Positions 42,330 to 45,604 of a stretch of DNA of 64,000 nt are shown here, piece by piece (position 1 is the stretch's first letter; the number at the start of each line of letters is the position of its first letter). The position numbers and the translations under genes were made by a program. Under the pieces are notes generated by a model. It did no database searches, was not told the DNA's origin, and saw only the letters and a program-made list of their open reading frames with translations. Source of the stretch: Symbiodinium natans. Taxonomy: Eukaryota > Sar > Dinophyceae > Suessiales > Symbiodiniaceae. The stretch covers positions 78,155 through 142,154 of the forward strand of contig CAJNDS010000432.1 of NCBI GenBank assembly GCA_905221605.1. The letters run 5' to 3'.

Positions 42330-45300
42330 TTGCGGCGATTCTCCATGAGACCGCAACGATCAGAAAGGCAGAGCATCTTGATAGCGAGGAGTAGGAGGCC
42401 AAGTCGAAGACTTCCCTCCGACTCTGGGTGTGGAAGGAGATGGTCTTGGACGTTCTTCTTCCTGTTATTGGTAGCTGAGGAGTGCATCCTCAGCCATGCA
42501 TCAGCTCAATCCTTCGTTCCGTCGCATGCAAGCCACATAAGCCACAGCGAGGAATTCAAACGAGGCACGTTCTTTCACAATAGGTCCAACAGTGGCCCTG
42601 GTCGACGAGCCGCAGAAGACCTTGTGTTTGTCACTGCAGAAGAGAATGCAATACAGAGTGTCGAAGAGGTTGTTTATTGCACCATATACCTTACGGCCTC
42701 CCTCCCAATGGGCTTGATTGGCGAAATCGGCTTACTGCTGAACCGCGCAATTTCCCTGACCTTGGAGCTTAAAACGACCTGGGTCAAGACCACCGACCTC
42801 AAGAGCAGCCCTGCCCCTGAAGTTCCAGAAGGAGACACGACAAGTCAGGACTGGCAGAACTTTCAGTTCGACTTTGTGGTGCTACCTCCCCAAAGTGGGA
42901 GTGCGGGTGTGACTTACTTGCTTCAAGTTGCATCTGAGGGCTCCCTACTTCAGACATTCAAGGCGTTGGTGCGCGAAAGCCCTTCCATGACAAGCGTGCT
43001 CATCAGCCCGTTTTGGGTGCTTCTCATGCCCGTTCCACAGGTTCGTGCAGAGACAGTCACCCGCCCTGCCATCTTCGCCACTTGGTCGTCCACCCAACTG
43101 CCACCCATCTACATCCCTGCCATCACCACTACGCCAGTCCCTGTGGCACCCCAAACCTGCACCAGTACCAGTACTCCCTGTACTTGTGCCTTCATTTCGG
43201 GGTGTGAGTGGGTCACTGCTGTGGGCGGGGCCTCGTTTTGCCAAGACGGCCGTGGACGGGTGCCGTGCTCTGCATGCAGCGCACAGGAGCACTGCGCTGC
43301 GACCTCTTGCGCTGGTTTGACGTCTGCCTGTCCCTGCACTTATTCACCGCTTGGCTGCCATTGGGATGAAGCGAATGTGCGATGTCAGATTGGAACTTCA
43401 CCTGGAACACCTTGCAGCGCTTGCGCGACTCAGAGACACTGCAACCCACCAGAGATTGTTTCGATAAGCCCAGCCTCAGGCACGCGGCTAAAGGTGCCGG
43501 AACACAACAACATCCTGATCAACTTCAACCGAGCTGTGGTGATCACTCAGCTGGGGAGCGTTTCTTTCAAGTGCACGGGGCAACAGCTGCCATTCTTTGT
43601 TGCATGGGAGGGTGTTCAGCCAACCGCGTCAGGCACGGCAGGGACGGACCAAACACGTTTGAAGTTTAAACGTTTAACAAACACTTCCGGCGTTTAAACT
43701 GTTTGAACAGAGTTGGGGCTTCGGAGCGTGTTGACAGTTTCAACAGTTCGCAAGGCTCACCGTTTAAACATCTGGTGGGGCTCAGTGTGGGGCTCCGGGG
43801 CGTTTAAACATGAGAAGTTGTTGCCAAGTGAGTGAGAGGGTTCTCAGGGGGTTGGGAGCGAGGGTCCCTAGACCCCAGACCTAAACCCATAACTCCCAAA
43901 CCCCCAAGACCCCAAGACCCCCAAACCCGCACTCTTTTGCAGCCACTCTTTGTTTATGTTTAACCACATGTTTAAACATGTGCGCGTTTAAACATTTGAC
44001 AGTTTAGACACTTTAAAGTTCAAATCACGTTTAAACAGTTCAAACCGTTTAAGCATTCTGCCGCAAGGGCGCTGTTTGTTTCCACATTGTGCGTTTAAAC
44101 GCCGAAAGTTTAAGCCGGTTCAACACAACGCCCCGCGCAACCCTGAGGCACGGGCATCATGGTCAGCATCTCTGTTTTGTTGAACGCGCAGTTCACAGAG
44201 CTGAGGCAGTGCACCCTGGCGATAGGCGCTGGGGTCGTTGTTGACAGGTCGGATGTGCCCTTCACTGGCCTACAGCAAGGACTGTATATCTTCAACTTGG
44301 GTGACACGGTGGAGCCACAGCTGGTCCAGTTCGAGCCTTCAAATGGCAAGGCCGATGTGACACCGGGTGCTGCTGTGACCTTCACCTTTGATGAGGAGCT
44401 GGTACTGATGAACGGCGCGAAGCTCATCACCCTCTACGAACTAACTCAGGGCGAGTCGGCAGTGCGGGGCGGCGCCATCGCTGAATTCCAGATGTCCTCG
44501 CCGCAAGTTTCTGTCTCTTTGCGAGCGCTCAAGATTGAGTTAGTGGACCTCACGAAAGCCGGCATGGAGTACTCAATAGACTTGCCGGATGATGCCCTAT
44601 CGGACATATCCGGAAACATATTTCCAGGACTGCCATCAGGACTGTACACGTTCAGATGCACAGGCGTCGCCATTGTGCCGAGTCCATTGAATGATGGGAG
44701 TTTGCAGGAGTTTTACCCGGTTTTCATGGCAGCGGGTGCAGTGTTCGTAATGGGACCTGTGTGTTTGATGCTGTGGAGACTCTCCCGTCTTCGCAAAGTC
44801 AAGCATCTGCACAAGCCCAGTAGCATCAGCCCGCAAACTCTACCACCAGGCTCGCCAAAAGACCTACGGGAAGACGAGGACTTTGAGGACGAGCTAGACC
44901 ATTCTGCCACATTTGCCTCAACGTGGAGCTTTGGTAACAAATCCGAGCACAGTGGGGTGGATGAGGCACATGAGAGCAGCGGCAGAAGCTGGGCTCAGAA
45001 GGTCAAGTCACCGCAATCACCGCAGGCACAGTGGCAGGGAGCATTTGTGAAATCCTCAGTCGCACGGAAAGGCCTTGCAGGTGCAGGTGCCGCTGCTGCA
45101 ACCTTGAACAAGGATCGCAAGCTTGGCCCAAGATATGGGCCCGGGCCAGCGCCAGGGCCGACGCCAGGGACCGGGCAGACTGGGGACGCCTCTAAGGACC
45201 ACAAGAAGAGCTTTAGCAAGCAACGGTCTGCTTCCTCAAACAACCTTGGTTCCAGCTCAGCAAAGCCGGGCACTCCATTCAAGGAAGGGACTTCGAACAC

Positions 45301-45604
45301 TTCGAACCAGGCTGGCAATCAGTCGAACAGCCAGTCGGGCAACCAATCGGGTGGCCAATCGAAGAGCAAGCAGGCCAAATCTGATGCTGCTGACTTCAGT
45401 GGGGACACAGCAGAAGTGAAAGCCAAGAAGCTTGCCATCGAAAGGAAGCTGCGTGACATGATGCAGTCACCCTTGGCAGACCGAAAGAAGGCTTTGCGAG
45501 AGCTTATGCTTGAGTACCACCCTGACAAGAGCGCAGATCCGAATGCGAAAGAGGTGTTTCAATTTATCAACGCATCGCGGGGCTGGTTCGTGGCAGAAAC
45601 TTAG
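42330..45604 (+). CDS. membrane protein: Cys modules, SbsA/Big-type Ig domains, TM, J domain
   Basis: Exon 1 (42330?-~43672): a basic N-terminus, then hydrophobic WTFFFLLLVAEECIL and SHASA|Q, a good signal-peptide cleavage site. A luminal region of about 200 residues follows, then two Cys modules of the form CxC...GCxW...C...PCSAC..Q.HC (about 43150-43450), and an Ig-like start NPPEIVSISPASGTRLKVPE. An intron (~43673-44190) follows. Exon 2 (~44190-45604): end of that Ig-like domain (VVVDRSDVPFTGLQQGLYIF), a second one (VQFEPSNGKADVTPGAAVTF ... DISGNIFPGLPSGLYTFRC), a transmembrane segment (FMAAGAVFVMGPVCLMLW, ~44725), a disordered Gly/Ser/Gln tail, then a J domain: LRELMLEYHPDKSADPNAKE then VFQFINASRGWF. 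The HPD motif suggests it recruits Hsp70 on the cytosolic side. Stop is at 45602-45604. Confidence 0.8.
43664..44100. repeat. eight GTTTAAAC palindromes in the Ig/J gene intron
   Basis: The 8-mer occurs at 43664, 43692, 43762, 43802, 43970, 43986, 44029 and 44093. One is the core of a perfect 18-base palindrome, CACATGTTTAAACATGTG (43965-43982). Relatives (GTTTGAAC, GTTCAAAC, GTTTAAGC) lie between them. A G/C-rich stretch with CCCAAACCC words (43861-43925) separates two clusters. Confidence 0.9.

Follow-up and report, generated by a model that had tools for sequence, protein, structure and literature searches.

The 64 kb stretch of contig C432 of the Symbiodinium natans genome analysed here (contig positions 78155–142154; this whole stretch is called the window) carries on its + strand a gene predicted to encode a membrane protein with immunoglobulin (Ig)-like domains of a bacterial type in front of a membrane span and a J domain at its C-terminus. 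Its coding sequence falls in two + strand frames, which are longer than any other stop-to-stop frame in the window: 459 codons (42318–43694) and 485 codons (44147–45601). The longest frame expected at random was 262 codons on average and 353 codons at maximum, as estimated by 30 first-order Markov simulations of 64 kb. Translation between the start codon at 42345 and the stop codon at 45602–45604, with 43633–44147 removed as an intron, gave a protein of 914 residues with zero internal stops. This joined translation supports a single gene that would code, in order, for a signal sequence, an N-terminal region, two Cys modules, two Big_5 domains, a transmembrane segment, a tail, and a J domain (Table 1). 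The same succession of Ig domains, membrane span, and J domain within one gene had been proposed in a preliminary description of this DNA, and it was borne out by the 485-codon frame, by Big_5 domain 1, which spans both exons, and by a paralogue on contig C1782.

Ig domain 1 is interrupted by non-coding sequence, as it might be if an Ig protein and a J protein were encoded by two adjoining genes and joined only on paper. Such an arrangement is highly improbable: Ig domain 2, the transmembrane segment, and the J domain share one uninterrupted 485-codon frame, the order of the parts is repeated on C1782, and Ig domain 1 reached the Pfam cut-off for Big_5 (PF13205, 23.6 bits) only with both exons, its score rising from 16.6 bits for exon 1 alone to 26.1 bits for the joined domain. 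Domain 2 exceeded the same cut-off with 29.7 bits (E 1.1e-6), in agreement with the SbsA/Big_5 type previously assigned to these domains. Among eight candidate junctions scored against Big_5, the top value of 28.9 bits belonged to 43628/44166, and the adopted junction 43632/44148 gave 26.1 bits; the profile score thus did not decide the junction.

Upstream of the Ig domains, hydropathy revealed a hydrophobic N-terminal core, TFFFLLLVAEECIL, at residues 36–49 after a basic n-region, as expected from the signal peptide noted earlier. The two modules recognised at that time by their PCSAC..Q.HC motif are related to each other, with a mutual alignment score of 81 against 30.5 ± 5.7 (maximum 53) for 500 shuffled sequences. 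Residues 57–268 had no significant family or PDB match in profile and PDB searches; PsaL matches of this region (E 0.12 and 0.35) were too weak and were judged to be chance. PDB searches with exon 1 and with Ig domain 2 also gave no significant match. In viral contigs, two stretches matched the pattern of exon 1 and 44 that of exon 2, and none of them was confirmed as a relative. A spliced-leader relict was sought in the window as well: no leader copy was present at ≤3 mismatches, and the 12-base core of the leader had one match with one mismatch, at position 2076.

The best support for a genuine fusion is a diverged paralogue on C1782. In searches of the same genome (759.4 Mb in 2543 contigs), exon 1 found one other place, C1782:172667–173011 on the minus strand (E 2.9e-12), with 38% identity over 112 residues covering the Cys modules and the start of Ig domain 1. 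A search with the C1782 Cys module returned only C1782 itself and the window gene (two matches, eight candidates scored). The J tail weakly matched C1782:167801–167893 on the same strand as the Cys match (E 0.022). Over about 5 kb, C1782 shows the same landmarks in the same order and on the same strand, namely Cys modules, Ig fragments, a transmembrane segment, basic residues, a tail, and a J tail. The series begins with the Cys modules and DPPQLASYFPQRG, followed by TNPPILIDFDPNS, which resembles the start of Ig domain 2; the pieces KTYTLELPEGAV and DMAGNPSAHLPAQAYNF resemble the end of that domain, and the transmembrane segment (mean hydropathy 2.62) and basic residues then come. The C1782 J tail, preceded by a low-complexity tail, lies in three exons, which were read as joined at GC donors and AG/G acceptors, and ends with WFLVET and a stop.

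Pairwise scores between the window gene and C1782 were compared with those of shuffled sequences. The J tails aligned without gaps, with 29 of 56 residues identical and a score of 180 (shuffles 22.6 ± 4.4, maximum 46, n = 1000). The Cys blocks scored 220 (shuffles 51.7 ± 8.9, maximum 92), and the blocks comprising the end of Ig domain 2, the transmembrane segment, and the tail scored 75 (shuffles 33.8 ± 5.7, maximum 67). Of the 56 codons of the J tails, 35 agreed at the first position, 42 at the second, and 21 at the third, which is nearly randomised; non-synonymous divergence by the NG86 method (dN) was 0.37, and synonymous divergence (dS) was not computable. This pattern across codon positions fits the expectation for two copies that have long been under protein constraint. 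Intron structure differs between the two genes. Because C1782 repeats the order of landmarks with different introns, the fusion is old and common to both genes, and an assembly or annotation accident is very unlikely as its source.

The intron of the window gene is probably an introner, consisting of a dispersed transposon-like element flanked by copies of a target-site duplication, AGGCACGG. Used as a query, it had at least 53 genomic matches, a count that takes in the query's own locus and many short fragments and rests on the scoring of 40 of 78 candidates. Five further copies of the element aligned over query bases 1–489 with 71–77% identity, and three of these five were read with their flanks. 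They place the start of the element at 43639, 18 bases upstream of the donor of a first splice model (GT 43657, AG 44147, 922 aa), which was dropped for this reason and because AGGCACGG stands on both flanks. The ends CAGGG...CCCTG are shared by the window copy and one of the three others, and the left end of the remaining two differs by one base. The flanking duplication matches at 8/8 bases in the window copy and at 7/8 in each of the three. Judging from its 8-bp duplication and CAGGG ends, the element may be hAT-like; a candidate introner family of about 490–510 bp is possible. The GC-AG introns with AG/G acceptors and the introner-like element fit a dinoflagellate of the Suessiales. When the element is removed at AG/GC, the insertion site is restored exactly and in frame. 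In the three other copies, each of the nine frames joined across the element, at the earlier boundaries, contained a stop within ~150 bases on either side, and these copies therefore do not look like introns of open frames.

These features could also be read as those of a dying gene, disrupted by a plain transposon insertion that is not spliced, with C1782 the only working copy. The dispersed element with its perfect 8-bp duplication and the stops in 9/9 joined frames of its three relatives would suit such a history. We consider it unlikely, as the AG/GC duplication provides both donor and acceptor with the frame restored exactly, the frames on either side (459 and 485 codons) remain open, and introners with target duplications have been described in Symbiodinium microadriaticum. 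According to a published account (PMC9860276), introners are known in diverse eukaryotes, S. microadriaticum among them, where they are likewise DNA-transposon-like and their target duplications supply a splice site. In the S. microadriaticum example given there, 4-bp duplications give the 5′ site and the element carries its own 3′ site, unlike the window element of ~507 bp, whose 8-bp duplication gives both splice sites. The joined gene, with its intron probably spliced, is the model used below.

Within the last 64 residues of this protein, the Pfam DnaJ profile (PF00226, cut-off 27.8 bits) scored 26.4 bits in the context of the whole exon, below the cut-off, 29.5 bits in the genome-wide search, and 30.7 bits for the excised tail. 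The match spans only positions 18–48 of 63, corresponding to helix II, the HPD loop, and part of helix III. Modelled alone by single-sequence prediction, the tail gave three helices (mean predicted local distance difference test score, pLDDT, 86.8; predicted template modelling score, pTM, 0.70), with HPD between the second and the third helix and no helix IV; the protein ends 25 residues after HPD. Among 37 Foldseek matches of this model, the first 25 were J-domain proteins, none of them significant (best E 0.62, TM-score 0.5–0.6). NCBIfam returned only weak DnaJ-type matches far under cut-off and one weak DNA ligase D match. In prokaryote genomes, 64 stretches matched the pattern of the J tail and none was confirmed as a relative.

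Five C-terminal J tails of the genome form one subfamily: those of the window gene and C1782 and three on otherwise unrelated proteins, located on C203, C81, and C2359. Leave-one-out profile scores of the five tails were 75.6, 75.4, 50.6, 45.4, and 39.3 bits, and the best other frame reached 24.2–33.6 bits among the 2524 frames of 50 loci fetched for J domains; because the rows were taken from an alignment built with all five tails, the omitted tail had a slight advantage. HPD is present in 5/5 tails, and 5/5 have K or R at the positions corresponding to R22 and K26 of DnaJ, the C81 and C2359 tails having been selected by a pattern that demands an HPD-like triplet. The C1782 tail scored 28.0 bits with Pfam DnaJ. 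The N-terminus of the WWE protein of C81, MGCGAS, may be myristoylated.

When the five-tail profile was run against the PDB, 37 sequences were found at E ≤0.01, with 1iur (KIAA0730 protein) the best at 49.6 bits (E 2.7e-12) and the next at 33.2 bits. The profile of three tails (window, C1782, and C203) also placed 1iur first (32.5 bits, next 27.3). KIAA0730 is presumably sacsin; a literature search for both names together found no paper. Papers retrieved on sacsin and dinoflagellates dealt, by title, with corals, apart from one on a mussel. Sacsin (DNAJC29), as represented by 1iur, shares the pattern P...R+K..R.L.L..HPDK....A.EVF with the tails and has its J domain near the C-terminus.

The occurrence of the subfamily on a helicase-associated domain protein (C203), a WWE-domain protein (C81), and an unknown protein (C2359), as well as on the two receptor-like genes, raises the question of whether the tail is a generic C-terminal tag, a short sacsin-like J module shuffled onto many proteins in this lineage and serving the folding or turnover of its carrier. 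In favour of this reading, a Symbiodinium study reports DnaJ in 408 gene families (PMC5670126). In the present genome, Pfam DnaJ had at least 152 matches at E ≤1, some of them below the cut-off (150 of 320 candidates scored). Ordinary J domains near frame ends were also present (L030, L045, and L055), so a C-terminal position alone is not special. That both receptor-like paralogues have kept this tail under strong constraint suggests a role tied to the carrier, and we regard the generic tag as a possibility to be taken seriously, if a somewhat doubtful one. Further members of the subfamily may be L073 (C1896:350824–350982, minus strand) and L074 (C2328:43538–43642, + strand). Two very similar J-domain genes, L043 and L044, lie inverted and ~6 kb apart on C653 (75336 on the + strand and 81197 on the minus strand).

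The most hydrophobic 19-mer of the window protein has a mean hydropathy of 2.12, and the next 15 residues carry a net charge of +6, consistent with the hydrophobic segment followed by basic residues in the preliminary description. Before this segment there are 22 Cys residues (two in the signal region); one lies within it and none after it. A type I orientation, with an extracytosolic ectodomain of Cys modules and Ig domains and a cytosolic J tail, is reasonably likely. With moderate confidence, we favour a type I protein with a single membrane span that serves as a membrane tether for cytosolic Hsp70. Its Cys modules and two Big_5 domains would be located outside the cytosol, either at the cell surface or in the lumen of a secretory or thecal vesicle, and the flexible Cys-free cytosolic tail would end in a possibly sacsin-like J domain. 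The HPD loop would dock on cytosolic Hsp70-ATP and trigger ATP hydrolysis. Hsp70 would thereby be loaded onto clients beside the membrane, for example coat complexes, cytoskeletal complexes, or partners of the tail itself, and the ectodomain would set the location of the tethered J activity. In this explanation, we infer the topology, the splicing, the stimulation of Hsp70, and the client.

Several points weigh against such a tether. Splicing is assumed, because the intron is an inserted element. Topology was judged from hydropathy and charge rather than by a trained predictor, and weaker hydrophobic stretches at residues 114–132 (mean 1.63) and 215–233 (mean 1.46), both in the N-terminal region, could be membrane spans. 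Structure prediction, suggested earlier as a check, gave three helices for the J tail, but the model of exon 2 was otherwise poor (mean pLDDT 41.1), so the Ig fold rests on sequence profiles; a Foldseek search with the model of the entire exon was not informative. Introns split the Ig domains of C1782, where 0/5 single Ig or transmembrane pieces matched Big_5, and four pieces chosen by eye and joined by X reached 19.2 bits, below the cut-off of 23.6; C1782 is not listed by the genome-wide Big_5 search. The window J domain is divergent. Its predicted helix I is without Y..LGV, the canonical motif of this helix in J domains; the HPD in EYHPDK, noted previously, is intact, and the Pfam match is partial. 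The residue that we take as equivalent to R27 of DnaJ is E in both the window gene and C1782, which may weaken or redirect the choice of Hsp70. The C203 tail had no Pfam DnaJ match. In a PDB search with the window tail alone, 1iur was sixth (21.2 bits) and 2cug best (25 bits), and 1iur was absent from the 37 Foldseek matches; kinship with sacsin therefore rests on the multi-tail profiles.

The same anatomy would be expected of a ligand-controlled Hsp70 receptor, in which binding to the Ig/Cys ectodomain would cluster or reorient the protein and thus increase cytosolic Hsp70 activity, and the Cys modules and J tail do stay together in the window gene and C1782. Since J tails of this subfamily are also found at the end of proteins for which no ectodomain was seen, control from outside is not a necessary feature of the tail, and we rate such a receptor as rather improbable. 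This receptor, the membrane tether, and the generic J tag are overlapping readings. As a still more specific and equally doubtful proposal, the protein might be a dinoflagellate transmembrane chaperone receptor, whose ectodomain of Cys modules and Ig-like domains senses an outside or vesicle event and whose cytosolic sacsin-like J tail converts it directly, by way of neither kinase nor second messenger, into local Hsp70 activity, as one of several carriers of a plug-in C-terminal J module. Coupling to an outside event is only one possibility among several, because the J-tail subfamily is also found on unrelated proteins. If coupling is real, Hsp70 would be under the direct control of an outside or luminal event, which would be a short route from environment to folding. 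The heat response of the alga matters for coral bleaching, if the alga is a relative of coral symbionts. The J-tail subfamily offers a defined candidate set for how co-chaperone modules spread over unrelated proteins.

The membrane tether that we favour can be compared with several known systems. In sacsin, which contains Hsp90-like repeats, the J domain is followed by a HEPN domain, as set out in a published article (PMC9779362), whereas the J domain of the window protein forms the very C-terminus of a membrane protein. Neither exon had a Pfam match to HEPN or to Hsp90-like repeats at E up to 5. That article also reports that the sacsin J domain binds Hsp70, for which a co-chaperone role was suggested, and that an H-to-Q change in HPD abolishes binding (PMC9779362). 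Likeness to DNAJB12 and DNAJB14 lies in a membrane-bound J domain that faces the cytosol, as proposed for the window protein, and the DNAJB12 J domain (2ctp) was the second PDB match of the five-tail profile. DNAJB12 and DNAJB14 are proteins of the endoplasmic reticulum (ER) that have a cytosolic J domain before the membrane span, recruit cytosolic Hsp70, and are not known to have an Ig/Cys ectodomain. Unlike them, the window protein has the J domain last and a large extracytosolic part. Auxilin and GAK (DNAJC6 and DNAJC26) are not known to have a membrane span or ectodomain. With them the window protein shares a J domain at the C-terminus, which in auxilin and GAK acts on clathrin coats, as stated in a published source (PMC4086201). 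Kinship with auxilin was unsupported, no chain named auxilin being present among 52 PDB matches of the three-tail profile at E up to 10. Membrane J proteins, C-terminal J domains, and Big_5 surface proteins are each already known separately. The order of Ig/Cys ectodomain, transmembrane segment, and J domain was not found in literature searches of open-licence full texts. We know of no membrane-tethered J protein in which the J domain ends a protein with an Ig-type ectodomain.

Table 1. Features of the Big_5/J-domain gene, of its putative intron, and of related J tails elsewhere in the genome (positions in the window unless a contig is given).
Feature	Position	Strand	Remarks
Exon 1	42345–43632	+	residues 1–429 plus one base; signal sequence to first part of Ig domain 1
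Signal sequence region (sequence and hydropathy)	42345–42512	+	long basic n-region; core at residues 36–49; possible cleavage after ASA
N-terminal extracytosolic region (predicted)	42513–43148	+	residues 57–268; no significant match
Two tandem Cys modules	43155–43442	+	residues 271–366; C.C....GC.W...C....PCSAC..Q.HC
Big_5 Ig-like domain 1, first part	43443–43632	+	Pfam profile
Target-site duplication AGGCACGG, left copy	43631–43638	+	supplies AG/GC donor
Intron as inferred	43633–44147	+	515 bp; GC-AG; acceptor AG/G
Dispersed transposon-like element	43639–44145	+	~507 bp; ends CAGGG...CCCTG; rich in GTTTAAAC palindromes
Target-site duplication AGGCACGG, right copy	44146–44153	+	supplies acceptor AG/G
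Exon 2	44148–45604	+	remainder of Ig domain 1, Ig domain 2, transmembrane segment, tail, J domain, stop
Big_5 Ig-like domain 1, second part	44148–44302	+	ends GLYIF; boundary approximate
Big_5 Ig-like domain 2	44303–44653	+	ends GLYTF; 29.7 bits
Transmembrane segment (predicted)	44711–44776	+	residues 618–639; hydropathy 2.12 over 19 residues
Basic residues after membrane span, RLSRLRKVKHLHK	44777–44815	+	
Low-complexity, Cys-free tail	44816–45409	+	residues 653–850; ~200 residues
C-terminal J domain, possibly sacsin-like	45410–45601	+	last 64 residues; three predicted helices
HPD codons	45518–45526	+	sequence EYHPDK
J tail of helicase-associated (HA) domain protein, L003	C203:115888–116067	-	HPD present; no Pfam DnaJ match
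J tail of WWE-domain protein, L071	C81:96172–96360	+	
J tail of unknown protein	C2359		

The genome-wide Big_5 search listed three places only: the window gene, C517, and C41. These domains are what the window gene has in common with surface proteins of the Big_5/SbsA type. On C517, Big_5 (L037, C517:53950–54249, + strand) is part of a 4569-codon frame for a giant surface-type protein, with a hydrophobic segment preceding Big_5; no J domain was seen in the 3.3 kb around this match. On C41 (L065 and L066, C41:12377–14777, + strand), repeats of the type QWTVQ.GG....A.AL..D..GN..V.G.T.SSLDGN.NAG precede a single Big_5 domain within an 800-codon frame, with a transmembrane-like segment 3′ of it; the three + strand frames of C41:5000–22000 contain no HPD.

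Elsewhere in the window, an exon of a glucosidase II beta subunit-like protein was found at 24952–25878 (PRKCSH_1, 48 bits). Telomere-like CCCTAAA/TTTAGGG arrays are interspersed at 5915–6075, 12432–12483, 32579–32640, 33063–33150, and 53440–53505. Repeat units at 58730–58774, 60642–60686, 59837–60169, and 61736–62238 lie ~1.9 kb apart, as if produced by tandem block duplication. A 57-bp tandem array of ~19 copies occupies 62929–64000 and reaches the end of the window.

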